Source of the DNA: Crenalkalicoccus roseus
GTDB lineage: Bacteria > Pseudomonadota > Alphaproteobacteria > Acetobacterales > Acetobacteraceae
DNA: 64,000 nucleotides
Direction of reading: 5' to 3'
Assembly: GCF_004761865.1 (NCBI RefSeq)
Contig: NZ_SJDM01000014.1
Location: 1-64,000 of the forward strand
Below the pieces are notes generated by a model that was given only the letters and a program-made list of their open reading frames with translations, was not told the DNA's origin and searched no databases. Shown one piece after another: positions 10,012 through 41,510 of the stretch; position 1 is the stretch's first letter; the number at the start of each line of letters is the position of its first letter. The position numbers and the translations under genes were made by a program.

Positions 10012-10680
10012 ATGGCCCCGCCGGACAAGGATCCCTTCGACATCCACCTGGTCTTCCGCCTGCTGCGCGAGGCCACGGCCGGGCTGCCCCGGGCGGCGAT
10101 GTTCGCGCTGCGCGACCGCGGCCACGGCACGCCCTTCGAGGTGCTGGTCGGCGCCCTCGTCTCCGCCCGCACGCGGGACGAGACGACGGTGCCGGTCTGC
10201 CTCCGCCTCTTCGCCCGCGCCCGCACCCCGGAGGCGATGGCGGCGCTGCCGGAGGCGGAGATCGCGCGCCTGCTGCACGGCGCCACCTTCCCCGAGCCGA
10301 AGGCGCGCGACATCCGCGCCCTCTCCGCCGCGATCGCCGCCCGCGGCGCCGTGCCCGACACCGCCGAGGGGCTGACGGCGCTGCGCGGCGTCGGGCCGAA
10401 GATCGCCGCGCTGACGCTCGGCATCGGCTTCGGCATCCCGGCTATCTCTGTGGACATCCACGTGCACCGCGTGACCAACCGCTGGGGCTACGTCGCCGCC
10501 CCGACCCCGGAGCGGACGCAGCGCGCGCTGGAGGCGGTGCTGCCGCGCCGGTACTGGATCGAGATCAACGAGCGCCTGGTGCCCTTCGGCAAGCATGTCT
10601 GCACCGGGGCGCGGCCGCGCTGCCCGGCCTGCCCGCTGCTCCGCCAGTGCCGGCAGGTGGGCGTACGGCACCCGGGGTGA
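10012..10680 (+). CDS. Endonuclease III-like DNA glycosylase/AP lyase
   Basis: This is a base-excision repair enzyme of the helix-hairpin-helix glycosylase superfamily. The hairpin LRGVGPKIAALTL carries the catalytic Lys, and VDIHVHRVTNR carries the catalytic Asp. The [4Fe-4S] cluster motif is complete near the C-terminus (Cys-x6-Cys-x2-Cys-x5-Cys in CTGARPRCPACPLLRQC). 222 residues is close to E. coli Nth (211). The divergent hairpin (GPKIA rather than GRKTA) suggests an Nth paralogue rather than the main housekeeping copy, so I give no symbol. Confidence 0.88.
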   Translation: MAPPDKDPFDIHLVFRLLREATAGLPRAAMFALRDRGHGTPFEVLVGALVSARTRDETTVPVCLRLFARARTPEAMAALPEAEIARLLHGATFPEPKARDIRALSAAIAARGAVPDTAEGLTALRGVGPKIAALTLGIGFGIPAISVDIHVHRVTNRWGYVAAPTPERTQRALEAVLPRRYWIEINERLVPFGKHVCTGARPRCPACPLLRQCRQVGVRHPG

Positions 10681-28894: not shown

Positions 28895-29788
28895 ATGGCA
28901 GCGACCCTGAGCCTCGGCGGCGTGCGCCGGCTGGATTTCGCGTTCGTCCCGCGGGCGGCGCTGTGCCTGCAGGCGCATGCCGGTTCGGCGTGGCGGGGCG
29001 CCTTCGGGCACGCGCTGAAGCGCATGGTCTGCGCCATGCGGCTGCGCCCCTGCGAGGGCTGCCCGCTCGCGGACGGCTGCCTCTACACCGCCTTCTTCGG
29101 CGCCGGCGCCGATCACGACGCCGCCCGCCCCTTCATCCTCTCGCCCGAGCCCCTTCCGCGCGACGGCCTGCTGCGCGCCGGCCGGCCCTTCACCGTGCGG
29201 CTGACGCTGCTGCCCGGCGCCGAGGCGGCCGCGGCCTACGCGGTGCGCGCCCTGCTGCGGGCGGCGGAGCAGGGCCTGTCCGGCCGGCGCGTGGCGCTCG
29301 ACTGCGTCTCCGTCACCGATGCCGCGACCGGCGAGCCGCTGGCCCCCCACGGCTCCCTGCCCGCGCCGGTGGCCTGCGTCGCCCCGCCACCGCCCCCGGC
29401 CGTGGAGCTGCGCTTCACCTCGCCCCTCCGCATCCGGCTCGCGGGCGATCTGCTGACGGCGCGCACCCTGCGCCCCGGCCACCTGGTGGGCGCGGCGCTG
29501 CGGCGGCTGCGCCTGCTGGGCTTCGGCCCCTCCCCGGATTTGGCCGCGGCGGCGCGCAAGGAGGCGGAGGGCCTGGCCTTCGCCGCGGCGCGGCTCGGCT
29601 GGCTCGAGACCACGCGCTTCTCCTCCCGCCAGAACAGCGCCATGCAGTTCGGCGGCATCGTGGGCGAGGCGGTGCTCGACCTGCGCGGGGCGCCGCATGT
29701 CTGGCCCCCGCTCTGGGCGGCCTCGATCCTGCATCTCGGCAAGGGGGCGGCGATGGGCTTCGGCCGGGTGGAAGCCCGTGCCCGCTGA
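28895..29788 (+). CDS. cas6: Cas6 pre-crRNA processing endoribonuclease
   Basis: This RAMP-fold endoribonuclease cleaves CRISPR repeat RNA to give crRNAs for the Csm complex. Features in order: a Cas6 signature RGAFGHALKR (about residues 34-43), a four-Cys cluster Cys46-x6-Cys53-x2-Cys56-x5-Cys62 ending CLYTAFF, and the C-terminal glycine-rich RAMP loop LHLGKGAAMGFGRVEA. 297 residues. The start ATG 28895 is first in the effector operon, 40 bp after a palindrome shared with the adaptation operon. The next gene overlaps its end by 11 bp. The catalytic residues of Cas6 vary between subfamilies, so I assign none. Confidence 0.9.
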   Translation: MAATLSLGGVRRLDFAFVPRAALCLQAHAGSAWRGAFGHALKRMVCAMRLRPCEGCPLADGCLYTAFFGAGADHDAARPFILSPEPLPRDGLLRAGRPFTVRLTLLPGAEAAAAYAVRALLRAAEQGLSGRRVALDCVSVTDAATGEPLAPHGSLPAPVACVAPPPPPAVELRFTSPLRIRLAGDLLTARTLRPGHLVGAALRRLRLLGFGPSPDLAAAARKEAEGLAFAAARLGWLETTRFSSRQNSAMQFGGIVGEAVLDLRGAPHVWPPLWAASILHLGKGAAMGFGRVEARAR

Positions 29789-30875
29789 CCCGGTCCCGAG
29801 GCCCCTGCACCTGCTGGCGCTGGCCGGGCTGTCGCCGCAGGTGGTCACGGAGACCATCTGGTGCCTGGCGCGGCGCCGGCCGCCGCGCCTGCCCTCCCGC
29901 ATCACCGTCCTGACCACCGCGGCTGGCCGGCCCCTGGCCGAGCGCCTGCTGCCGCCGGCCCTGCGCGACCTGTCGGCGGCGCTCGGGGCGGGCCTGCCCC
30001 CGCCGCGGCTGCGCCTTCTGCGCCGACGCGACGCCGCGCCGCTCAAGGACATCGCGAGCGATGCCGACAACCGCGCCGCGGCGGATGCCATCCTCGCCGC
30101 GGTGGCCGAGGCGACGCTCGACCCCGCGACGGATGTGCACCTGTCCATCGCGGGCGGGCGCAAGACCATGGGCTGCCTCGCCGCCATCGCGCTCAGCCTG
30201 TACGGCCGGGAGGGCGACTGCCTCTCCCACGTGCTGGTGGATCCGAGGCTGCAGGGCCGCGCGGACTTCTTCTTCCCGCCCGCCGTGCCGCGCCGGCTTC
30301 CCCTGCCCGAGGGCGGCACGGTCAGCACCGCCGAGCACGGGCTGACCCTGGCCGAGATTCCCTTCGTGCGGCTGCGCGCGCGCTGGCGGCCGGGGCGGGA
30401 TGCCGACGCCTTCTCGGCCGCCGTGGCCGCGGCGCAGGAGGCGCTCGATCCGCCGCGGCTGATCCTCGATCCCGCCCGGCGGCAGGCGCATCTCGGCGCG
30501 CACCGGCTGCCGCTCCCCCCGACGCTCTTCGCCGGCCTGCTCTGGCTGGCCGAGCTGGCGCGGCGCGGCGACGCCGTGCCCTGGTGGCGGACCGCGGAGC
30601 AGGCCCGCGACCTCGCCGCGCAATACCTCGCGGCCATGGAGCGCGTGGTCCGCGGCTCCGAGCTCGACCAGGCGCGGCGGGCGCTCTCCGCCGGCATGGA
30701 GCGGACCTACCTCGCCGAGAAGGTGTCGCGGCTCAACCGGGCCTTCCGCCAGGCGCTGGGCCCCGCCGCCGAGCCCTTCCTGATCCGCGCCGAGGGGCGG
30801 CGGCCCCGCACCGGCTACCGTCTCGCCCTGCCCGCGGAGGCGATCACCATCATCGAGGACGCCCGTGGCCGCTGA
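29778..30875 (+). CDS. NE0113-family CARF protein with OmpR-like winged helix
   Basis: The N-terminal ~170 residues match the CRISPR-associated NE0113 (Cas_NE0113/TIGR02584) family: LAGLSPQVVTETIW, DIASDADNRAAAD and SIAGGRKTMG at about 123-132, a CARF-type nucleotide-sensing fold. Residues ~226-352 read like an OmpR-type winged helix: LILDPARRQAHLG, then LPPTLFAGLLWLAEL, and finally a helix SRLNRAF with wing GRRPRTGYRLAL. I infer a cyclic-oligoadenylate-responsive transcription factor, by analogy with the CARF-wHTH regulator Csa3. The GTG start at 29778 overlaps cas6 by 11 bp; an ATG at 29697 would read through cas6. No HEPN or nuclease motif is visible. Confidence 0.8.
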   Translation: MPADPVPRPLHLLALAGLSPQVVTETIWCLARRRPPRLPSRITVLTTAAGRPLAERLLPPALRDLSAALGAGLPPPRLRLLRRRDAAPLKDIASDADNRAAADAILAAVAEATLDPATDVHLSIAGGRKTMGCLAAIALSLYGREGDCLSHVLVDPRLQGRADFFFPPAVPRRLPLPEGGTVSTAEHGLTLAEIPFVRLRARWRPGRDADAFSAAVAAAQEALDPPRLILDPARRQAHLGAHRLPLPPTLFAGLLWLAELARRGDAVPWWRTAEQARDLAAQYLAAMERVVRGSELDQARRALSAGMERTYLAEKVSRLNRAFRQALGPAAEPFLIRAEGRRPRTGYRLALPAEAITIIEDARGR

Positions 30876-33429
30876 CGCCCCACCCCCTCTGCTCTCGCCG
30901 ATGGAGGCCGCCCTGGCCGGCCTGCTGCACGACATCGGCAAGCTCGCGCAGCGCGCCCACGCGGACGAGCGGGCGCTGCGCGAGGCCTATGGCGGCGACC
31001 TCGCGGGCACCGAAGCGGCAATCCTGCCGCTGCGCGACGGCCGCTACACCCACCGCCACGCGCTGTGGAGCGACTTCGCGATCCGCGAGGCCGAGCGCCA
31101 GCGGCTGCGCTGGCCGGTCGAGGTGAACGGTGCCCGGCTTGCGGCGGTGGCGGTGCGCCACCATGACCCGCGCCACGACGACCCTGCCGACTGGATCCTC
31201 GCCGAGGCCGACCGCCTCGCCTCCGGCCTCGAACGCAAGGAGAAGGACGAGGCGGAGGAGGCGCAGGGCGTAAGGCTGCGCGAGCGCGAGCAGCGCGCGC
31301 TGCTGCCCGCGATCGCGATCGGGCGCGGTGCCGCGCCCGGGGCGATGTGGCATCCGGCGGAGGAGGCCTCGCCCGAGGCGCTTCTGCCCCGCCCGCCCGC
31401 ACCCAGGGACCAGCCGCGCTGCTACGGCCGCCTCTGGGCGGACTGGCAGGCGGGATTCCTGGGCTTCGGGCAGCACGGGCTCTCGGCCCACCGCTTCGAG
31501 CGCGCGCTGCTCGGCCTCTCCGAGCGGCTGCTCTGGGCCGTGCCCTCCTCCACCGTGGACCAGCCGGACGTCCCGCTGCACGAGCATGCGCGCGCGGTCG
31601 CCGCCATCGCCGCAGCGCTGACCGCCTGGCACGCGGCGCGGGGTGCAACCGAGGTCGCCGCGGTGAAGGACCGCAGGACACCCAAGTTCCGACTTGCCGC
31701 ACTCGACCTCTCCGGCATCCAGGCGGCGCTGTTCCGCCTCGACGGCCGCGGCGGGGCGAGCCGCATCCTGCGCGCGCGCTCCTTCCTCATGGGCCAGACG
31801 GTGGAGGCGGCGCTGCATCTCCTGCTCGGCCGCCTCGGCCTGCCCTTCTCCTCGGTGCTGCTGAACGCGGGCGGCAAGGCGGAGCTGCTGCTGCCCGACC
31901 TGCCCGATCTCGACACGCGGCTCGAGGCCGTGCGCGCGGCGCTGGATGGCTGGATGGTCGCGCACTGGCAGGGCGATCTGGCGCTGATCCTGGCCGCGGG
32001 CCCGCCCTTCGCCGCCGAGCAGTTCCTCCCCCGTGGCCAGGACGGGGCGGTGGCCGAGGGCTACCGGCAGGAGCGGGCGAAGCTCGCCGCGGCGCTGGAT
32101 GCGGCGAAGCTCCGCCCCCTCGCGGGGTGGTCCGGGGGGTTCCTGGGGACCGGCGTGATCCCCGCTCCCTTCGATGCGGCGCACGGCGCCTGCGCGAGCT
32201 GCGGCGTGCGGCCGGCGGTGGCGCAGACGCCGCTCGATGGGGCCTGGCGCTGTCGCGTCTGCGATGCGGCCTATCGCCTCGGCCAGCGCCTGCCCAAGGC
32301 CGAGGGCTTCGCGCTGCTCGAGGCGACCGCCGAGGCGGCGGAGGCGCCGGCCGCCCTGCCCGGGGGCCTGCGCCTCGCGCCCTGGCCCGAGCGCGGCGCG
32401 GCGGCGCGCGCCAGCCACGCCTTCACGCGCGCCGAGGCGGGCAGCGCCGTCTTCCGCGCGCCCGCTTACGTGCCGCTCGTCGCCGATCCCGCCGATCGGC
32501 GTTACGACCACGCCGGCATTCCCGCGGAGGATCGCAACGCGACGGGCGACCTCATGACCTTCGCCCAGATCGGAGCGGAGGCGCTGGAGACCGTCGAGAG
32601 GGACGGGATCGTCGGGCGCGACCTGCTCGGCATCCTCAAGGCGGATGTGGATTTCCTCGGCCGCGTCTTCGCCGATGGCCTGGGCCGGGACCGTTCGCCG
32701 GCGCGCGTGGCGCAGCTCTCGCGGCTGCTGGACGGCTATTTCACCGAACGCCTGCCCTGGCTGCTCTCCCGCGATTTTCCCGCCACCTACACGGTCTATG
32801 CCGGGGGCGATGACCTGCTGCTCATCGCGCCATGGCGCTTCGCTCTGCCGCTGGCGCTCAGGCTGCGCGAGGATTTCGTGGCCTTCGCCGGCGGCAATCC
32901 GAACCTGACGCTCTCGGCGGGCGTCGCCTTCGTGCATCCGAAGCATCCCCTGGCCCTGGCGGTGAAGGAGGCGGAGGAGGCGCTCGAGGCGGCCAAGACG
33001 GGCGGGCGCGACCGCCTCGGCGTCTTCGGGCGGGTGCTGCGCTGGGAGAGCCTGCACGCCACGCTTGATCTTGCCGAGGCGCTGAACCGGGCGGTCCGCG
33101 AGGAACACCTGCCGCCGACCTTCCTGCACCGCATGCGCTGGTTCGCCGCGCGGCGCCGCCTTGCGGAGTCGGCGGAAACCGAGGCTACCCGGCCGGAAAC
33201 GGAGCCGCGCGCGAGGACGGGAAGAGCCCCGATACGGGAAGACGCCGTGAGGGCGGCCGACTGGAATCCGAAGTGGCGCTACCAGGAGGCGCGGTTTTTG
33301 GATCGCGCGCCGTCCGAGGCGCGCGAGGGGCTGCGCGCCTTGCTGCTGCGCGCCCTGCCGCCGCCCTGCCAGGCGACCGAAGCCGATGCGGAAATCGCCA
33401 TGACCATCGCGCTGTGGCGGAACAGATAG
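30865..33429 (+). CDS. cas10: Type III-A Cas10 (Csm1)
   Basis: This is the signature subunit of the Csm complex: it makes cyclic oligoadenylate on target-RNA binding and cuts single-stranded DNA. The N-terminal HD nuclease motif is LLHDIGK (His22-Asp23) with further His in THRHALW and VRHHDPRHDD. The first Palm is marked by DLSGIQAALF at 281, the zinc ribbon by Cys443, Cys446, Cys463 and Cys466, and the cyclase Palm by GGDD at 647-650. All active sites look intact. It has 854 residues from GTG 30865, overlapping the CARF gene by 11 bp; an ATG at 30901 is the alternative. Confidence 0.95.
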   Translation: MAADAPPPLLSPMEAALAGLLHDIGKLAQRAHADERALREAYGGDLAGTEAAILPLRDGRYTHRHALWSDFAIREAERQRLRWPVEVNGARLAAVAVRHHDPRHDDPADWILAEADRLASGLERKEKDEAEEAQGVRLREREQRALLPAIAIGRGAAPGAMWHPAEEASPEALLPRPPAPRDQPRCYGRLWADWQAGFLGFGQHGLSAHRFERALLGLSERLLWAVPSSTVDQPDVPLHEHARAVAAIAAALTAWHAARGATEVAAVKDRRTPKFRLAALDLSGIQAALFRLDGRGGASRILRARSFLMGQTVEAALHLLLGRLGLPFSSVLLNAGGKAELLLPDLPDLDTRLEAVRAALDGWMVAHWQGDLALILAAGPPFAAEQFLPRGQDGAVAEGYRQERAKLAAALDAAKLRPLAGWSGGFLGTGVIPAPFDAAHGACASCGVRPAVAQTPLDGAWRCRVCDAAYRLGQRLPKAEGFALLEATAEAAEAPAALPGGLRLAPWPERGAAARASHAFTRAEAGSAVFRAPAYVPLVADPADRRYDHAGIPAEDRNATGDLMTFAQIGAEALETVERDGIVGRDLLGILKADVDFLGRVFADGLGRDRSPARVAQLSRLLDGYFTERLPWLLSRDFPATYTVYAGGDDLLLIAPWRFALPLALRLREDFVAFAGGNPNLTLSAGVAFVHPKHPLALAVKEAEEALEAAKTGGRDRLGVFGRVLRWESLHATLDLAEALNRAVREEHLPPTFLHRMRWFAARRRLAESAETEATRPETEPRARTGRAPIREDAVRAADWNPKWRYQEARFLDRAPSEAREGLRALLLRALPPPCQATEADAEIAMTIALWRNR

Positions 33430-33439
33430 GAGGAACGGC

Positions 33440-34003
33440 ATGTCGGGCCACCACAGGAACCACCGCGGGCCGGGCGGAGGTCCGTCGCAGCGGCGCTTCG
33501 CCGGCACGGGGGGGCTTGCGCGCCAGCCGGCGACCGGCCCGGGACATGCGGCGCCGCCAGCCGGCGGCGAAGATGCGCGCGGCCGCATCGAGGACCTGCT
33601 CCGGCCGCCGGCGCAGAAGCTGTGCTACTTCGCCGACAATGATCGCAAGGTAATCGACGCGAACCTCTTGGGCAGTAAGGCCGAAGAGGTGGCCAGGAAG
33701 CTCGCGGAGGTGCCGGCGAGCCAGCTCCGCCGCTTCTATGCCGAGGTGATGGCGCTCAAGCGCCGCGCCGAACTTGCCGGGGCGAGCGATGCGGAAGTCC
33801 GCGCGCAGCTCATGCTGCTGCGCGCCAAGGCCGCCTACACCTGGGCGCGCCAGAAATCCTATCCGGACGAACTCGTCCTGTTCTTCACCCGCCATGCCGC
33901 GAGCGTCGAGACCAGGCACGACTTCCTGCGCGGCTTCCAGCCGCATTTCGAGGCCGTGATGGCCTTCCACAGGGTGTTCGGGAAGAAGAAGGACGCCGCA
34001 TGA
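33440..34003 (+). CDS. csm2: Csm2 small subunit
   Basis: This is the small helical filament subunit of the type III-A complex, contacting crRNA and target RNA. The core begins near residue 50 (RIEDLLRPPAQKLCYFAD) and continues with QLRRFYAEV and a KAAYTWARQKS segment typical of Csm2. About 45 residues of Gly/Pro/Arg-rich, probably disordered sequence precede it; 188 residues in all, longer than usual (about 120-150). It starts 10 bp after cas10 and overlaps csm3 by 4 bp. Confidence 0.9.
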   Translation: MSGHHRNHRGPGGGPSQRRFAGTGGLARQPATGPGHAAPPAGGEDARGRIEDLLRPPAQKLCYFADNDRKVIDANLLGSKAEEVARKLAEVPASQLRRFYAEVMALKRRAELAGASDAEVRAQLMLLRAKAAYTWARQKSYPDELVLFFTRHAASVETRHDFLRGFQPHFEAVMAFHRVFGKKKDAA

Positions 34004-34779
34004 GCAGCATCCGCGAAGCCGGCCGTGTGCGCGTCACCGGCCTGATCCGCCTCCGCTCCGGTCTCCACATCGGCGCCGGCAAGGACAGCGTGGAGATCGG
34101 CGGCATCGACAACCCGGTGATCAAGCACCCGCACACGGGCGAGCCCTACATCCCCGGCTCCTCCCTCAAGGGCAAGCTGCGCTTCCTGCTGGAATGGGCC
34201 TTCGGCAAGGTGCGCGCGGACGGCCATGCCTGGGGCTTCAACGACAACCAACCCGTCGAGGCCGATGACCCGGTGCTGCGCATCTTCGGCAATGCGCTGA
34301 AGGAGTGGAAGAGCGGGCCGACGCGGCTGATGGTGCGCGACGCGCCGCTTTGCGGAGATGATTGGGACCGCTACCGCGAGGCGCCCGAGGCCTTCTTCGA
34401 GGAGAAGACCGAGGTTCTGATCGACCGCATCAGCGGCAAGGCGCATGGCGAGGTCGGCCCGCGCCAGACCGAGCGCGTTCCGGCCGGCGTGGCCTTCAAA
34501 TTCGAGATGGCCTTCCGCCTCTACGATCTTGGCGACGGCGCGGCGCGCGACCTCGACTGCCTGAACTGGGCGCTGCAGGGCCTCGCGCTGCTCGAGGAGG
34601 ATGCGCTCGGCGGTTCCGGCTCGCGCGGCTACGGGCGCATCGCCTTCGAGGATCTCGCCCTCTACGCGCCGGGGCCCAAGGAGATCAGGCTCGACAACCG
34701 CTTCCGCGGCCACCGCTTCGACCGTGCCAAGGCCCCCGCCATCGTCAGGGCGGAGGAGGTGCTCGGGGTGCCGGCCTGA
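34000..34779 (+). CDS. csm3: Csm3 backbone RNase
   Basis: This RAMP backbone subunit cuts target RNA at 6-nt intervals. The catalytic-loop Asp is present in GGIDNPVIK (Asp37), and the family motif YIPGSSLKGKLR and the C-terminal GSGSRGYGRI glycine-rich loop are clear. 259 residues, normal for Csm3 (about 220-260). It overlaps csm2 by 4 bp and csm4 by 1 bp (TGATG). Confidence 0.95.
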   Translation: MSSIREAGRVRVTGLIRLRSGLHIGAGKDSVEIGGIDNPVIKHPHTGEPYIPGSSLKGKLRFLLEWAFGKVRADGHAWGFNDNQPVEADDPVLRIFGNALKEWKSGPTRLMVRDAPLCGDDWDRYREAPEAFFEEKTEVLIDRISGKAHGEVGPRQTERVPAGVAFKFEMAFRLYDLGDGAARDLDCLNWALQGLALLEEDALGGSGSRGYGRIAFEDLALYAPGPKEIRLDNRFRGHRFDRAKAPAIVRAEEVLGVPA

Positions 34780-35726
34780 TGGAACTCCGCCGCTTCCGGC
34801 TGGTGCTCGACCGGTTCTCGGCCTTCGGCACCCCGCCCACCTCGGGCACGCTCTTCGGCCATCTCGCCTGGGCGAAGCGGGCGCGCGAGGGGCGGGAGGC
34901 GCTGCGCGCCTGGCTCGCGCGCCTGCCCGCGGAGCCCTGCGCCCTCTCCGACCTGCTGCCCGCGGATCATCTGCCGAAGCCGCTGCTGGCTCCCGCCGTG
35001 CAGGACGATCCGCGCGAGGACGCGAAGCAGGCCAGGCGGCGCCGCTACCTGCCGCTTGCCGCCTGGCGGCGGCTGCGCGTCGGGGCGCGGGCGGCGACCC
35101 TCGATGCCCTGCTGCGCGAGACGCGGGACGATCCGCCCTTCCTCGCGCCCGCGCGGGTGCCGCACAACCGCATCGACCGCGCCACCGGAAGGACGCCCGA
35201 GGCCGGCGGCGGCGGGCTGTGGGTCGCCGGCGAACTCTGGCCGAAGGTGGGGCGGGAGGGGCCGCGCCGCATCGAGGCCGATCTCTACCTGCGCGGCACG
35301 CTGCCGGCGCGGGAGGCCGAGGCGCTCATCGCCCATGTCGGGGAGACGGGCTTCGGCCGCGATGCCGCCACCGGGCGCGGGCGCTTCACCCTGGAGGGCA
35401 GCGAGGCCGCGGGCTGGCTCGACGAGCGGCCGGGTGGCGGGGTGTCGGCGCGCATGCTCTCGCTCTCGCAGGGGGTGGTGACGGACACGATGCGGGAGGC
35501 GCGCTGGAGGCGCTTCGTGCTGTTCGGCAAGCTGGGGCGGGAGATGGTGGTGGAGGGCAAGCGGCCCTGGAAGCTGCCGCTGCTGCTGGCGGAGTCCGGC
35601 GCCACCTTCGCGCCCGAGGGCGACGGCCCCTTCGGCGCCTGGATCACCGGCGTGCACCAGGACGATGCGACGATCGGCCACAACGCCTTCCATCTGGCGA
35701 TCCCCTACACGGAGGCTGCCGCGTGA
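34779..35726 (+). CDS. csm4: Csm4 (crRNA 5'-handle-binding RAMP)
   Basis: This RAMP subunit caps the 5' end of the crRNA next to Cas10. Motifs include SGTLFGHLAW near residue 23, a basic RVPHNRIDRATG loop and the C-terminal ATIGHNAFHLAIP. 315 residues from ATG 34779, overlapping csm3 by one base. Its last codons overlap the csm5 GTG start by 4 bp. Confidence 0.93.
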   Translation: MELRRFRLVLDRFSAFGTPPTSGTLFGHLAWAKRAREGREALRAWLARLPAEPCALSDLLPADHLPKPLLAPAVQDDPREDAKQARRRRYLPLAAWRRLRVGARAATLDALLRETRDDPPFLAPARVPHNRIDRATGRTPEAGGGGLWVAGELWPKVGREGPRRIEADLYLRGTLPAREAEALIAHVGETGFGRDAATGRGRFTLEGSEAAGWLDERPGGGVSARMLSLSQGVVTDTMREARWRRFVLFGKLGREMVVEGKRPWKLPLLLAESGATFAPEGDGPFGAWITGVHQDDATIGHNAFHLAIPYTEAAA

Positions 35727-36970
35727 ACCTCCATGCCGGCCCGCCGCGCGCCATGGCGCGGCTGACGCTGCGCCTCGTGCCGCTGACGCCGCTCCATATC
35801 GGCGACGGGACGGAGATGCGGCTGGACGAGTATGTCTTGGATGAGCCGTCGCAGGGGCAGCGCTTCGACAAATGGGGCGAGGAGATCGAGGAGCAGGCGC
35901 AGGCGCCGAAACTCTGCCGCTTCGACCAGGCGAAGGCGATGCGCGCGATGACGCCGGCGCAGCGCAGCGCCTTCCAGCACGCCCTCGATTCGGGCCAGCT
36001 GGGCGAGGCGGCGAGGGCGCTGCGGGAGGCGGGCAGGGGCGCGATCGTGGAGCGCATGCCGATTTCCCGGCGCTCGGCCGCCGAACTGAAGAAGGCTTTC
36101 AAGGACCCGCTGCTGCGTTCGGGCCAGGTGAAGCCCTTCATCCGCAGCGGCGGGCGGCTCTACATCCCCGGCAGTTCCCTCAAGGGTGCCTTCCGCACGG
36201 CGCTGGCCTCCGCCGCCCTGCCGCGCGATTGCGAGCCGCCTGGCGGCTGGCATGACGAGAGCGCGCTATCCGCCGCCCTCGGCCTCAGCTCGAACGATAC
36301 CACGACCGACCCGCTGCGCTTCCTCCATGTCGAGGACGCGTTCCTGCCTGAGGACGCGACGCTGATCGATCAGGCGGAGGTGATGCACCTCAAGAACCCC
36401 GCTGCGGGCAAGGCGCAAATGCATTACGAGCGCACGCGCGCGCTGACCGACGGCGCGAAGGCGCCCGTCTTCACGGTCGCGATCCATCTCGATGGCCGGG
36501 CGCTCGACGGGCGCTGCGTGGCGCGTCAGCCCGCGCGCTTCGATCTCCGCCTTCTGCTGTCGCGCTGCCGCGCCTTCCATCTGAGTCTCTTCAACACCGA
36601 GATGGCGCGCTTCTTCGAGGGCGCGGTCAAGGCCCGGCTCCTGCGGCTGCTGCGGGGCCATGCGGGCGAGGGCGGCCGGCTGCCGGTCACGCAGCAGGGC
36701 TGGAGTCCCGGCTTCGTCCTCCTCCGCCTCGGCCGCTTCGGGCATTTCGAGAGCAAGTCGCTGGAGGGCGTGCGCCGCGGCCATGTCCCGCAGGCGACCC
36801 ATCCGGCGGACCGCATCCGCCCTCCTGGCGCCTGGGGCCAGACGCGCACCGTCACGCGCGATGCCGCGGGCAATCCCATCCCCTTCGGCTGGGTGATCGG
36901 CTGGGCGGTCGCCAGCCCATCCGGCCGTGACCGGAGCCCGGCGTCGCAAGACAAGGAGGAGCACGGGTGA
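35723..36970 (+). CDS. csm5: Csm5
   Basis: This RAMP subunit at the crRNA 3' end of the complex is involved in crRNA maturation. RLVPLTPLHIGDGTEM is the first RAMP motif, LYIPGSSLKGAFRTAL the second, and a Gly-rich segment (RLGRFGHFESKS) lies near the C-terminus. 415 residues from GTG 35723 (GTGA overlap with csm4); an ATG at 35753, after the NLHAGPPRA lead, is an alternative. Its stop overlaps the csm6-type start by 4 bp. Confidence 0.93.
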   Translation: MNLHAGPPRAMARLTLRLVPLTPLHIGDGTEMRLDEYVLDEPSQGQRFDKWGEEIEEQAQAPKLCRFDQAKAMRAMTPAQRSAFQHALDSGQLGEAARALREAGRGAIVERMPISRRSAAELKKAFKDPLLRSGQVKPFIRSGGRLYIPGSSLKGAFRTALASAALPRDCEPPGGWHDESALSAALGLSSNDTTTDPLRFLHVEDAFLPEDATLIDQAEVMHLKNPAAGKAQMHYERTRALTDGAKAPVFTVAIHLDGRALDGRCVARQPARFDLRLLLSRCRAFHLSLFNTEMARFFEGAVKARLLRLLRGHAGEGGRLPVTQQGWSPGFVLLRLGRFGHFESKSLEGVRRGHVPQATHPADRIRPPGAWGQTRTVTRDAAGNPIPFGWVIGWAVASPSGRDRSPASQDKEEHG

Positions 36971-38238
36971 AGACCATCCTGATCGCGTCCGTCGGCGGTT
37001 CGCCGGCGCCCATCGCCTCGGCGCTGGCGGCGCAGCGCCCGGATTTCGTCCTCTTCGTCGCCTCCGCGCCGAAGGGGGCGCAGCCCGGATCGGCCGACCA
37101 GGTGCCGGGCATCCTGCAGAGGGCGCAGCGCCCGCAGCAGGCGCACGAGGTGCTGGCGGTGCCCCCGGACGATCCGGAGGCGATCTTCCTCCGGCTCGGC
37201 GAAAGGCTGCGCGCGCTGCGCGCCGAACATCCCCGCGCCACGATCCTGTTCGACTACACGGGCGGTACCAAATCCATGACGGGCGCACTGTTCCAGGCGG
37301 CGATCGCCACGGAGGGGGCGCGGGTCCAGTTCATGCTGGGGCGGCGCGAGAACCTGGAGAGGGTGACCGACGGCACCGAACGCCCCACGGCCATCGCGAC
37401 GGACTGGCTGGTGGCCGAACGCACCGAGGCGCGGCTGCGCGCAGCCTGGTCCGGCTTCGACTACGCGACGGCGGCGAAGGGATTCGCGGAGCTGACGGAC
37501 CAGCTGGGCGGCGACGAGACGGCGCCGGAGGCGGTGCGCAGGCGGCTGCGCGCCCTCGCGCAGGTCTCGCAAGCCTTCGACCTGTGGGACCGCTTCCGCT
37601 ACAAGGAGGCGGCGGATGCGCTGGGCGGGCTGGCCTTCCGGTATCCGAAGCTCGACCCCTGGGTGGCGCGGGCGCGGCGCTGCGCGGCGGAAAAGCCCGC
37701 CCGCATCCTCGACCTCTGGCGCAACGCGGAACGCTGCGCCGGGCGCGGCCGCTACGACTACGCGGTGGCGCGGCTCTACCGGCTGACCGAATGGGTGGCG
37801 CAGTGGTGGCTCGACCATGCCTATGGCCTCGACACGGGCCGGATGGACTGGTCGAGACTCACGGCTGAGGAGATCCGTCGCGCCGGGCTGTCCGAACAGC
37901 GGGGCAAGCCCACCCTCTCGGGCCTGGTGCAGGCCTGGAAGCTGATGGCCGCCAAGGACCCCGGCGGCCCCGCGGCGCGCTTCCTCGCCTCGTCCTTTCC
38001 CCATCCCAGGGATCCGCGAAAGACGGCTGAGGGGCGGCTCAAGGACATGCTGGACCTGCGCAACCGCGCCATCCTCGCGCATGGTGACCGCCCGCTCCAG
38101 AAGGAGGATTGGGAGAAGTGGCACGACTTCGCCGAGCGGATGCGCACCGCGGTGCTGGTGCCGCTGCTGCGCCAGGCCGGCGCGCCGCAGGAGATGCCGC
38201 CCCAGCTTCCGGCCGATCCCGCGTGCCTTGGCCTCTGA
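36967..38238 (+). CDS. csm6: Csm6-type CARF-HEPN ribonuclease (TIGR02710-like)
   Basis: This is the cyclic-oligoadenylate-activated RNase of the type III response. The CARF domain spans about residues 1-145: LIASVGGSPAPI at the start and the ligand-contact motif YTGGTKSMTG at 97-106. The C-terminal HEPN domain carries the active-site Arg367-x4-His372 in RNRAILAHG. 423 residues. The pattern fits the TIGR02710 (Cas02710) branch rather than classical Csm6. The GTG start overlaps csm5 (GTGA), and the stop codon is part of a repeated CTGATGCCCGGCG segment shared with fabG. It ends the effector operon. Confidence 0.9.
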   Translation: MKTILIASVGGSPAPIASALAAQRPDFVLFVASAPKGAQPGSADQVPGILQRAQRPQQAHEVLAVPPDDPEAIFLRLGERLRALRAEHPRATILFDYTGGTKSMTGALFQAAIATEGARVQFMLGRRENLERVTDGTERPTAIATDWLVAERTEARLRAAWSGFDYATAAKGFAELTDQLGGDETAPEAVRRRLRALAQVSQAFDLWDRFRYKEAADALGGLAFRYPKLDPWVARARRCAAEKPARILDLWRNAERCAGRGRYDYAVARLYRLTEWVAQWWLDHAYGLDTGRMDWSRLTAEEIRRAGLSEQRGKPTLSGLVQAWKLMAAKDPGGPAARFLASSFPHPRDPRKTAEGRLKDMLDLRNRAILAHGDRPLQKEDWEKWHDFAERMRTAVLVPLLRQAGAPQEMPPQLPADPACLGL

Positions 38239-38661: not shown

Positions 38662-38952
38662 ATGCCCATGGCCGACCGCGCGCTGCACCTCCTCGCCTAC
38701 GACGTCGCGCATCCGAAGCGCCTGCGCCGGGCGCTGCACGCGGCGCGCCGGCACGCCACGGGCGGGCAGAAATCCGCTCATGAGTGCTGGCTGAGCGGGG
38801 CCGAGCGCGCCGGGCTGCTCGGCACGCTGCGCGGCCTGCTGCACCCGCGCCAGGACCGGCTGCTCGCGGCCCGGCTCGATCCCCGCCTGCCGCCGCGGTG
38901 CCTCGGCACCGCCCGCGCGCCGGAGCCGCCGGGCTTCCGCATCATCGGGTAG
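38662..38952 (+). CDS. cas2: Cas2, first copy (cas2a)
   Basis: This is a small ferredoxin-fold subunit of the CRISPR adaptation complex. The N-terminal strand ends LLAYDV with Asp14 in the conserved place; RRALHAARRHATGGQKSAHE and CWLS form the expected second strand. 96 residues. It is the first gene of the adaptation operon, 4 bp before cas1a, and 36 bp downstream of the shared palindrome. It shares little sequence beyond fold motifs with the second Cas2 at 40697, so the two are old paralogues or came from different systems rather than a recent duplication. Confidence 0.85.
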   Translation: MPMADRALHLLAYDVAHPKRLRRALHAARRHATGGQKSAHECWLSGAERAGLLGTLRGLLHPRQDRLLAARLDPRLPPRCLGTARAPEPPGFRIIG

Positions 38953-38956
38953 CGCC

Positions 38957-39934
38957 ATGACCACGCTCTACATCGACCGCCGCGACGCGCTGATCGAGGC
39001 CGAGGCCGGCACGCTGCTGGTGCGCGCCGCCGATGGCACGCTGGCCCGCACCCCGCTCGCCCCCGTGGAGCGCGTGGTGCTGCGCGGGCCGGCGCGCCTG
39101 TCCACCGGTGCGATCGCCGCCATCGCCGGGCAGGGGGCGGCGCTGCTCGTGCTCTCCGGCCGGCAGGGGCGGCTGGCCGGGGTCGTCGCCGGCGCCGCCC
39201 ATGCCGATGCCGCGATCCGCCTCGGCCAGTTCCGCCTGGCGCTGGACGAGGCGGCGCGCGGCGCCATCGCGCGGCTCCTGCTGCGGCGGAAGCTGCTCGG
39301 CCAGCAGCGGCTGCTGCGCGAGGCGCTGCGCCGGCGCCCCGACCGGCGCCTCGCGCTGACCCGCGGCGATGCCGCCCTGGCCGAGGCGCTGGCGCGGCTG
39401 CGCGCGGCGGAGGGCGCGGCGCCGGCGCGGCTGATGGGCATCGAGGGGGCGGCGGCCGCCGCCTATTTCGAGGCCTTCGGCGCGCTGCTGCCGCCTTCGG
39501 CCGGCTTCGCGGGCCGCAACCGCCGCCCGCCGCGTGACCCCGCCAACGCGGCGCTGTCGCTTGCCTACACCCTCGCGCAGTTCGAGGCGGTGCGGGAGGC
39601 GCGGCTCGCCGGCCTCGACCCCGCCGTGGGCTTCCTGCACGCCCTCGCCCCGGGGCGGGACAGCCTGGCCTGCGACCTCGTCGAGCCGCTCCGCCCGCTG
39701 TGCGAACGGCTGGTCTGGCGGCTCTTCGCCGAGGAGGTGCTGCGCGCGGCACACTTCACCCGCGACGGAGAGGCCTGCCTGCTCGGCAAGGCGGGGAGGC
39801 TCGCCTTCTACGCGGCCTGGGAGGAGGCGGTAGCCCCGGCGCGGCGGTGGCTGCGCCGCGGCCTCAGGCCGCTGGTACGGGCGGCGCGGGCGGCGGCGTC
39901 CGGCCTGGCCTGGGAGGGACCGGCGGATGCTTGA
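38957..39934 (+). CDS. cas1: Cas1 integrase, catalytic copy (cas1a)
   Basis: This is the spacer-integration enzyme. The N-terminal beta-domain (about 1-85) runs from LYIDRRD to GRLAGVVAG. The C-terminal helical domain holds the metal ligands: Glu163 in LMGIEGAAAAAYFEAF, His228 in VGFLHAL, and Asp240 with Glu243 in CDLVEPLRP. 325 residues, standard. It follows cas2a after 4 bp and overlaps the second Cas1-like gene by 8 bp. No reverse transcriptase is fused or adjacent. Confidence 0.95.
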   Translation: MTTLYIDRRDALIEAEAGTLLVRAADGTLARTPLAPVERVVLRGPARLSTGAIAAIAGQGAALLVLSGRQGRLAGVVAGAAHADAAIRLGQFRLALDEAARGAIARLLLRRKLLGQQRLLREALRRRPDRRLALTRGDAALAEALARLRAAEGAAPARLMGIEGAAAAAYFEAFGALLPPSAGFAGRNRRPPRDPANAALSLAYTLAQFEAVREARLAGLDPAVGFLHALAPGRDSLACDLVEPLRPLCERLVWRLFAEEVLRAAHFTRDGEACLLGKAGRLAFYAAWEEAVAPARRWLRRGLRPLVRAARAAASGLAWEGPADA

Positions 39935-40700
39935 GGCGCTGCACCTGGATGCCGCCGAGCGGCCGGTCGCGGTACTGCTGGAGGGGCCGGCGCTGCGGCT
40001 GCGCCGCCCCGGCATCGCCGACGTCTTCGCGCCGCTGCCGCGCCTGTCGCGGGTGGTGGTGCACGGCCCGCGGGTGCAGTGGCGGACCGAGGCGCTGATG
40101 GCCTGCGCCGAGGCGGGGGTGCCGGTCCTGCTGATGGGGGGCAGGGGCGACCTGCTGGCGGTGCTGCTGCCGGTGGCGCCGCCCGCCATGCGCCGCGACC
40201 TCGCGGCGGCGCTGGACACGGCGGCGACGCTGCCCGGCTTCCGCGGCTGGCTGGAGGATTTCTGCCGCGCCGAGCAGCGGCGGGCCGCGCTGGCGACGCT
40301 GCGGACGGAGCGCATCGCCCCGGCGAGGGCCGATCTGCGCCCGGCCTTCCTCCGCGCGCTGTGGCTGGGCGAGGGCCCGCCCGCCGCCCGGGCGCAGGCG
40401 CTGTGGGGGCTGCTGCGCGGCCTGGGCGAGGGGCTGGTGGCGGAGGGGCTGGCCCGCCAGGGCGTGGGGGCGCAATTCCTGGCGCGGCGCAGCGGGGCCT
40501 TCCCCCTGCCGGCCCTGCTGGGGGAGGCCCTCGTCACCCCGCTATGCCCGGCCCTGGGGCGCCTGGCCCGCGACCATGCCGGGGCGCCGGAGGCGGCGGC
40601 ACGCCGCGCCGCCATCAGGCTGTTCGAGCAGGCGGGGCTTGAGCCCGAGCGCGACCGGATCCTCGCCCGCCTGGCGGTGCGGCTGGCGGCGGAGACGTGA
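39927..40700 (+). CDS. Cas1-like protein lacking the active site (cas1b)
   Basis: The first ~85 residues align with the Cas1 beta-domain of the preceding gene: RVVVHGP, the ALMACAEAG helix, PVLLMGGRG, LLAVLLP, against RVVLRGP, AIAAIAGQG, ALLVLSGRQ and GRLAGVVAG. The helical part is shorter (about 170 versus 240 residues) and shows no IE, LH or DLxEPLRP motif; the nearest equivalent, LLGEALVTPLCPALGRL, lacks the acidic ligands. I infer a catalytically inactive Cas1 paralogue that could form the non-catalytic half of a Cas1 heterodimer. The coding frame is intact, with start and stop overlaps to both neighbours, so it is not a pseudogene by structure. Confidence 0.75.
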   Translation: MLEALHLDAAERPVAVLLEGPALRLRRPGIADVFAPLPRLSRVVVHGPRVQWRTEALMACAEAGVPVLLMGGRGDLLAVLLPVAPPAMRRDLAAALDTAATLPGFRGWLEDFCRAEQRRAALATLRTERIAPARADLRPAFLRALWLGEGPPAARAQALWGLLRGLGEGLVAEGLARQGVGAQFLARRSGAFPLPALLGEALVTPLCPALGRLARDHAGAPEAAARRAAIRLFEQAGLEPERDRILARLAVRLAAET

Positions 40701-41068
40701 GGATGGGCCGGCGGCGCACCTGGCTGATCGGCTACGACATCGCCTCGCCGCGCCGGCTGCGGCGCGTGGCCCGGCTGCTGGAAAAGCGCGCCTACCGCCT
40801 GCAATACTCCCTGTTCGTGGCCTGCTGGACGGAGGCGGAATTCGCTTCCGTGTGGGCGGCGCTTGCGGAACTGATCCACCCGCGCCGCGACGATGTGCGG
40901 GCCTGGCCGCTGGCCGAGAATGCGCAGGTGGAGGTGTGGGGAATGAGCTGGCCCGCGGATGTGCTTGTGGGAGAGGGCCGTTCCAGGCCGTTCGGCCGGC
41001 TGCTCGGCCAGCGGGGCGTGGCGGAACCCGATGATGCGGTGTATCCTGACCCGGATCTTGAGGGTTAG
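40697..41068 (+). CDS. cas2: Cas2, second copy (cas2b)
   Basis: This is a second Cas2-fold protein: TWLIGYDIASPRRLRRVARL with Asp14, then YRLQYSLFVACW, the canonical second strand. 123 residues, with a longer C-terminal tail (GQRGVAEPDDAVYPD) than cas2a. The GTG start at 40697 overlaps the cas1b stop (GTGA); ATG 40703 is the alternative. It ends the adaptation operon. Confidence 0.9.
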   Translation: MRMGRRRTWLIGYDIASPRRLRRVARLLEKRAYRLQYSLFVACWTEAEFASVWAALAELIHPRRDDVRAWPLAENAQVEVWGMSWPADVLVGEGRSRPFGRLLGQRGVAEPDDAVYPDPDLEG

Positions 41069-41510
41069 CCCCGATGCGGGTGCGCCGTGTTGCGAAGCTG
41101 CCTTCCAGGGGATTGGATTGGTTGGGTTTTTTTGGGGGAGGGGGTTCTTCAGCAGACCCGATCTTTAGGGGGGTCAAGGCTAGGCGAAGCTTCGGCTGTG
41201 CCAGCGAGGATCCAAAATCGCCAGCAGGCCCATCCCCGAAGAGGGAAGCGCCGGCTTCCGCTGCGCGCCAAGCGAAGGGCATCCCGCGCGAGAGAGAAAG
41301 GAAGCGCCGGCGGCGTCCCTGCCGCATCCGCCCGGCGGCCCGAGCGCCCCTTGCCGGGGCCCCCGCGGGGGCCTGGCCACCGGCACAAGGCGGTGATGCG
41401 GGGGCCTCCTCGCTTGAGGATGGCACGCCCTTCGGCCATGGATCGCCACGCGTGAAAAGGCGTTTCGCCCCGCTTCCGGTCGCGGCGGCGCCCTCCTATC
41501 TGGAAGTTCC
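41069..41510. other. 442-bp region after cas2b
   Basis: This region contains no convincing gene and no repeat array. Just after cas2b, 41087-41121 reads like a single type III-style CRISPR repeat (GTGTTGCGAAGCTG, then CCTTCCAGGGGATTGG) and is followed by an unusual G/T-rich tract at 41108-41144. GGCCCCCGCGGGGGCC at 41358-41373 is a perfect 16-bp palindrome. Promoters for PBP1A were not located. Confidence 0.5.

Follow-up and report, generated by a model that had tools for sequence, protein, structure and literature searches.

A type III-A operon with a doubled adaptation module

The window analyzed here is a stretch of 64,000 nucleotides from Crenalkalicoccus roseus. It holds a complete type III-A operon, with cas10 accompanied by csm2 to csm5, and downstream of it four open reading frames on the forward strand that run in the order cas2a-cas1a-cas1b-cas2b from position 38662 to 41068 (Table 1). 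A canonical adaptation module has one cas1 and one cas2; this cassette has two of each. Nor is it of the RT-Cas1 kind, as Cas1a consists of 325 residues of Cas1 domain alone, with no reverse transcriptase fused to it.

Table 1. Features of the type III-A locus and its adaptation cassette (positions are those of the window).
Feature	Position	Strand	Evidence
cas6, crRNA-processing nuclease, start of type III-A operon	28895..29788	+	PADLOC Cas6 3e-60; sole PF10040 match in genome
CARF-domain signalling protein, start codon uncertain	29697..30875	+	PADLOC CARF5 1e-79
cas10/csm1	30865..33429	+	PADLOC Cas10 1.6e-91, Cas10a 2e-78
csm2	33440..34003	+	PADLOC Csm2 3e-18
csm3	34000..34779	+	PADLOC Csm3 4e-60
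csm4, start approximate	34768..35726	+	PADLOC Csm4 5e-52, residues 141-450 of ORF 34362-35726
csm5, start approximate	35699..36970	+	PADLOC Csm5 7e-13
CARF-HEPN ancillary RNase, Csx1/Csm6-like	36967..38238	+	NCBIfam TIGR02710 3e-46; PADLOC CARF1-HEPN 2e-93
cas2a, GGQKS-type Cas2, 96 aa	38662..38952 (likely start 38668)	+	Pfam Cas2 4e-6; Cas2 fold Z 11.5
cas1a, catalytic Cas1, 325 aa	38957..39934	+	Pfam Cas1 4e-70; E163/H228/D240 invariant 15/15
cas1b, diverged Cas1 lacking the catalytic residues, 257 aa	39927..40700	+	Cas1 fold Z 15.1 (model); PDLC01185 1e-6
cas2b, QYS-type Cas2, variable C-terminal tail, 123 aa	40697..41068 (likely start 40703)	+	Pfam Cas2 6e-14; alignment
Leader-like region	41069..41143	+	Resembles cas2b-array gap of loci L018 and L021, compared side by side
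Single degenerate CRISPR repeat, sole copy in assembly	41144..41179	+	Repeat search

The original prediction described four tightly packed genes encoding two Cas2 and two Cas1-fold proteins in mirror order, and this is what the locus contains. A gap of 4 bp separates cas2a from cas1a, while cas1a and cas1b overlap by 8 bp and cas1b and cas2b by 4 bp; if the starts suggested by relatives are right (38668 for cas2a, 40703 for cas2b), the last overlap becomes a gap of 2 bases. Pfam recognizes the first, second and fourth genes, and the third was identified through its AlphaFold model. We rejected chance open reading frames as an account of the four.

An active Cas1 and a diverged one

The two Cas1 proteins are far from equivalent. 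In Cas1a, the active-site triad (E163, H228 and D240) is invariant across all 15 sequences. None of the 13 Cas1b sequences has it: their C-terminal domain contains no conserved aspartate or histidine, its sole conserved acidic residue is E234, and the alignment has a deletion of about 46 columns spanning the histidine region. The Pfam Cas1 match of Cas1b (6e-4) lies below the cut-off and is confined to the N-terminal part. A profile comparison with Cas1 likewise detected homology over the N-terminal 80 columns only (96.5%), and the Cas1b profile found one chance match among PDB sequences and nothing else.

The AlphaFold model of Cas1b, built from seven sequences, has a mean pLDDT of 73.5, with poor confidence for residues 1-52. 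Its best PDB match is 5fcl_F (Z 15.1, 228 of 257 residues aligned, rmsd 3.6), and among the PDB matches listed all 50 are Cas1 or casposase chains. The model has the N-terminal beta domain and helical C-terminal domain of the Cas1 fold. On the evidence of model and alignment, Cas1b folds as a Cas1 over its full length but no longer has the catalytic residues.

How the two proteins have diverged is telling. At one and the same set of 13 loci, conservation of the N-terminal domain is equal in the two (44% identity for Cas1b, 43% for Cas1a), whereas the C-terminal domain of Cas1b has fallen to 28% against 54% in Cas1a. The N-terminal domain of Cas1 contributes to the dimer contact. Keeping that domain while losing catalysis is the pattern that a structural partner should leave. 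The overlap of the cas1a and cas1b genes is conserved among relatives as well.

Two old Cas2 lineages and their three-gene relatives

Both small proteins are Cas2s by their Pfam and PDB profile matches, which point to the ferredoxin-like fold, and the structure match of Cas2a is 1zpw (Z 11.5). They are only about 30% identical to one another and fall in separate clades (support 95/85 for Cas2a, 95/89 for Cas2b), so a recent duplication, also discounted in the original prediction, is rejected. GGQKS and EC are invariant in all 15 Cas2a sequences; Cas2b carries the usual QYS-type motif. Their sequences mark the two as lineages that parted long ago.

A search of plasmids with Cas1a returned three that carry two cas2 genes. 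The order is cas2-cas1-cas2 on the Sphaerotilus plasmid pSna507_unt13 and the Aeromonas media plasmid pMC64A, the latter module adjoining a III-B effector, and cas2-cas2-cas1 on an Allochromatium plasmid; one genome, at locus L119, has the three-gene form too. These modules with two Cas2s and a single Cas1 (L115, 5144-6851; L117, 5028-6628; L116, 4791-6510; and L119; three of them on plasmids) were not described in those parts of the papers that our search covered. Their first and second Cas2s group with Cas2a (95/85) and Cas2b (95/89), respectively, and the Cas1a clade takes in three of their Cas1s (97/91). In the best tree, the three-gene forms are nested on long branches inside the Cas1a group, which would mean that cas1b had been lost; an AU test does not reject the alternative that the four-gene arrangement arose once (p 0.10). 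Because the Cas2 pair occurs with a single Cas1 in these modules, paired Cas2 is the broader feature, with the dead Cas1 accompanying a subset, and Cas1b is dispensable in some relatives. Searches of plasmids by tblastn with Cas1b and Cas2a gave no match, and profiles of the same two proteins found nothing in viral contigs.

A rare but widespread module under selection

The four-gene order recurs in 14 other genomes, disposing of the idea that it is confined to the window genome. Within the window's own phylum, Pseudomonadota, which is where we surveyed, it was found at 16 loci in 15 genomes and four GTDB families, its genes overlapping or abutting; contig ends truncate two of these loci. A Cas1b search of 299 Acetobacteraceae genomes, followed by neighborhood checks, yielded seven further genomes with eight loci, among them Caldovatus sediminis, Caldovatus aquaticus, Elioraea thermophila and a Rhodovarius MAG with two copies. 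Also among the seven is a MAG labeled Terriglobia (isolate HOT.MB2.42), which was placed in the same family, Acetobacteraceae. Beyond that family, the same order occurs in one genome from the class and in six from the phylum, and one small family has it in all three genomes examined. Since 7 of 398 genomes in the phylum sample possess the module, the window genome included, it is rare but widespread. The effectors beside it vary: the window genome and its Acetobacteraceae relatives have III-A, locus L059 has Cmr1 and a III-B-type Cas10 as neighbors, and L063 has Cmr6.

In pairwise comparisons of relatives (Nei-Gojobori), dN/dS of each of the four genes lies mostly at 0.2-0.44, with cas1b usually the fastest. 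Two values between the window and L022 are higher (0.73 for cas2a and 0.58 for cas1b), with small dS. Purifying selection acts on each of the four, and no value suggests lost constraint; the relaxation of cas1b and cas2b that the original prediction had named as a sign of decay was looked for and is not there. Distances among the four proteins correlate at 0.87-0.96, which mostly reflects shared ancestry. In one of the two Rhodovarius copies (L019, 8373-10121) cas1a is frameshifted and the repeat at 10540 stands alone, and the other (L020) is intact, so that this MAG holds a decaying copy alongside one that apparently works.

Arrays and spacers

CRISPR arrays adjoin the module at seven loci. 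Those following cas2b have about 36 (L018), 49 (L021), 66 (L022) and 82 (L023) repeats, and at L049 an array of 132 copies lies upstream of the cassette. Arrays beside the module therefore do grow. The window is different in this respect: a single degenerate repeat sits behind a leader resembling those of the relatives, while the complete type III-A operon persists upstream. The assembly, in 127 contigs, yielded no further copies of the repeat, and the window system probably stores no memory at present, a gap in the draft assembly being possible. An AGACC...GGG repeat core is common to L058, L061 and the Acetobacteraceae arrays, and its direction with respect to the module is the same in all of them. 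This sharing across families suggests that repeat and module travel together.

Our set comprised 368 spacers, mostly 33-36 nucleotides long, from the seven arrays (L018, L021, L022, L023, L049, L058 and L061); the control was 374 spacers from Acetobacteraceae type I arrays and contained no single-Cas1 type III arrays. The repeat served to infer the crRNA strand, and spacer positions and tests were picked after looking at the data. Module arrays show a small strand bias that is absent from the type I control: mean purine content on the inferred crRNA strand is 0.470, with all seven arrays below 0.5, against 0.501. At spacer position 19, a position chosen after looking, T occurs at 33% versus 18% in five arrays (p ~4e-11), and A is preferred about 3 nucleotides to the left of this central T. 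The combination of A on the left and T on the right outnumbers the reverse by 710 to 476, compared with 506 to 488 in type I. As this central preference is mainly mirror-symmetric, and flip tests for asymmetry are marginal (17/500, with 26/500 for the type I control), asymmetric capture is not established. A stop-codon test for the spacer strand gave an uninformative signal. Spacers of two arrays had no protospacer match among 50,697 phage records, so neither a PAM nor a target strand could be read. We regard the strand bias and the central base preference as leads.

A heteromeric integrase?

Solved integrases have a central Cas2 dimer flanked on either side by a Cas1 dimer, and within each Cas1 dimer one protomer is catalytic and the other non-catalytic (PMC8102632, PMC6895254). 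Our favored interpretation, which we hold to be rather probable, is that the products of the four genes make up a single heteromeric CRISPR integrase for the type III system, with Cas1b as the non-catalytic protomer and Cas2a and Cas2b as the core. Cas1a would supply both active protomers, the dead Cas1b would take the non-catalytic place in each Cas1 dimer, where it would hold DNA and partners, and Cas2a and Cas2b would form the central pair. This placement is a matter of reasoning. Complete integration requires active sites at the two ends; if Cas1b is dead then Cas1a must be at both, which leaves Cas1b most naturally as the non-catalytic member of each Cas1 dimer. What the genomes offer is the gene set and its order, the loss of the Cas1b active site, the retained N-terminal domain, the Cas2 lineages, purifying selection and the arrays; from these we infer physical hetero-assembly and its stoichiometry. 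The original prediction had taken a hetero-oligomeric integrase as the simplest reading. The module is indeed old, conserved as a unit and under purifying selection, and that reading is still the simplest; what has to be given up is the equivalence of the two Cas1s: with Cas1b catalytically dead, they would be a catalytic and a non-catalytic protomer rather than two integrases.

A bolder version is that heterodimers of Cas2a with Cas2b and of Cas1a with Cas1b give the complex chemically different ends, the enzyme itself setting which end of the prespacer attacks the leader side. Speculatively, the Cas2 pair would break the two-fold symmetry and so make the two ends differ; that core would have to be the main source of any left/right asymmetry. 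We think this version unlikely. Were it true, a type III array would have the orientation of its spacers fixed without a PAM.

Of the other ways to account for the module, the one we take most seriously, while doubting it, makes Cas1b an accessory protein that reuses the Cas1 fold, for example as an adaptor that binds leader or repeat or processes prespacers, or as a regulator of Cas1a, with Cas1a forming ordinary homodimers around the Cas2 pair. The three-gene modules, in which the same Cas2s are paired with a single Cas1, fit this well, and so does a C-terminal domain of Cas1b that has been free to diverge (28%). It sits less comfortably with an N-terminal domain as constrained as that of Cas1a, with the conserved gene overlap and with the retention, as modeled, of the whole Cas1 fold. 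Those same three-gene modules tell against two homotypic integrases working in parallel, Cas1a and Cas1b each having a Cas2 to itself, however much the mirror order and the two full gene pairs bring such an arrangement to mind: both Cas2s persist there with one Cas1, so they are not each tied to a Cas1 of their own. Moreover, a Cas1b with no E/H/D in any sequence should not join DNA, and we give parallel integrases very little credence.

It is just as improbable that cas1b and cas2b are what is left of a second adaptation module. The single degenerate repeat in the window and the damaged Rhodovarius copy look like decay, but the four genes are intact in several families, beside large arrays, and their dN/dS is well below 1. 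Decay is refuted for this type of module; in the window genome alone, the system may have decayed.

Returning to the heteromeric integrase, its appeal lies in what it would allow. One gene encodes both Cas1 protomers in the CRISPR integrases that have been studied, and their roles are inseparable by mutating that gene. Here the catalytic and non-catalytic roles appear to have been separated by nature, and the Cas2 core split as well. This makes the role of the non-catalytic Cas1, the weight of Cas2 symmetry and the setting of spacer orientation questions testable by gene deletion, with the three-gene relatives as a natural control for comparison.

Comparison with known systems

The original prediction knew of no described system of this kind. 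In the open-access literature searched, nothing turned up on this module, on its lost active site and Cas2 pairing, or on its relatives with three genes; titles, abstracts and passages yielded no description of two Cas1s, of two Cas2s, of Cas1 or Cas2 paralogues, or of an inactive Cas1. PMC12669027 was rejected as a source on 'diverged Cas1'; the passage in question reads 'diverged Cas10'. The second Cas1 had nevertheless been recorded: PADLOC profile PDLC01185, 'Cas1, diverged variant, second in the loci', is matched by all 13 Cas1b sequences (best 5.8e-17), each of them encoded second, after an active cas1. It is a profile with a one-line description, and the Cas2 pair, the lost triad and a mechanism are absent from the papers as far as our search covered them.

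Set beside the canonical integrase of four Cas1s and two Cas2s, the module shares the triad of Cas1a, the Cas1 and Cas2 folds, adjacency to an array and a type III effector; it differs in having two Cas1 genes, one without catalytic residues, and two Cas2 genes of separate lineages. The modules of pSna507_unt13 and pMC64A have the same Cas2a (GGQKS) and Cas2b (QYSVF) lineages and the same Cas1 clade, but no Cas1b, and their single Cas1 lies on a long branch. The Cas6-RT-Cas1/Cas2 integrase (PDB 7kft) also serves type III adaptation, and distinct catalytic and non-catalytic Cas1 conformations occur together in that complex (PMC8102632). There, one gene provides both protomers, whereas in the module described here Cas1a has neither an RT nor a Cas6 fusion and the second protomer would come from a gene of its own.
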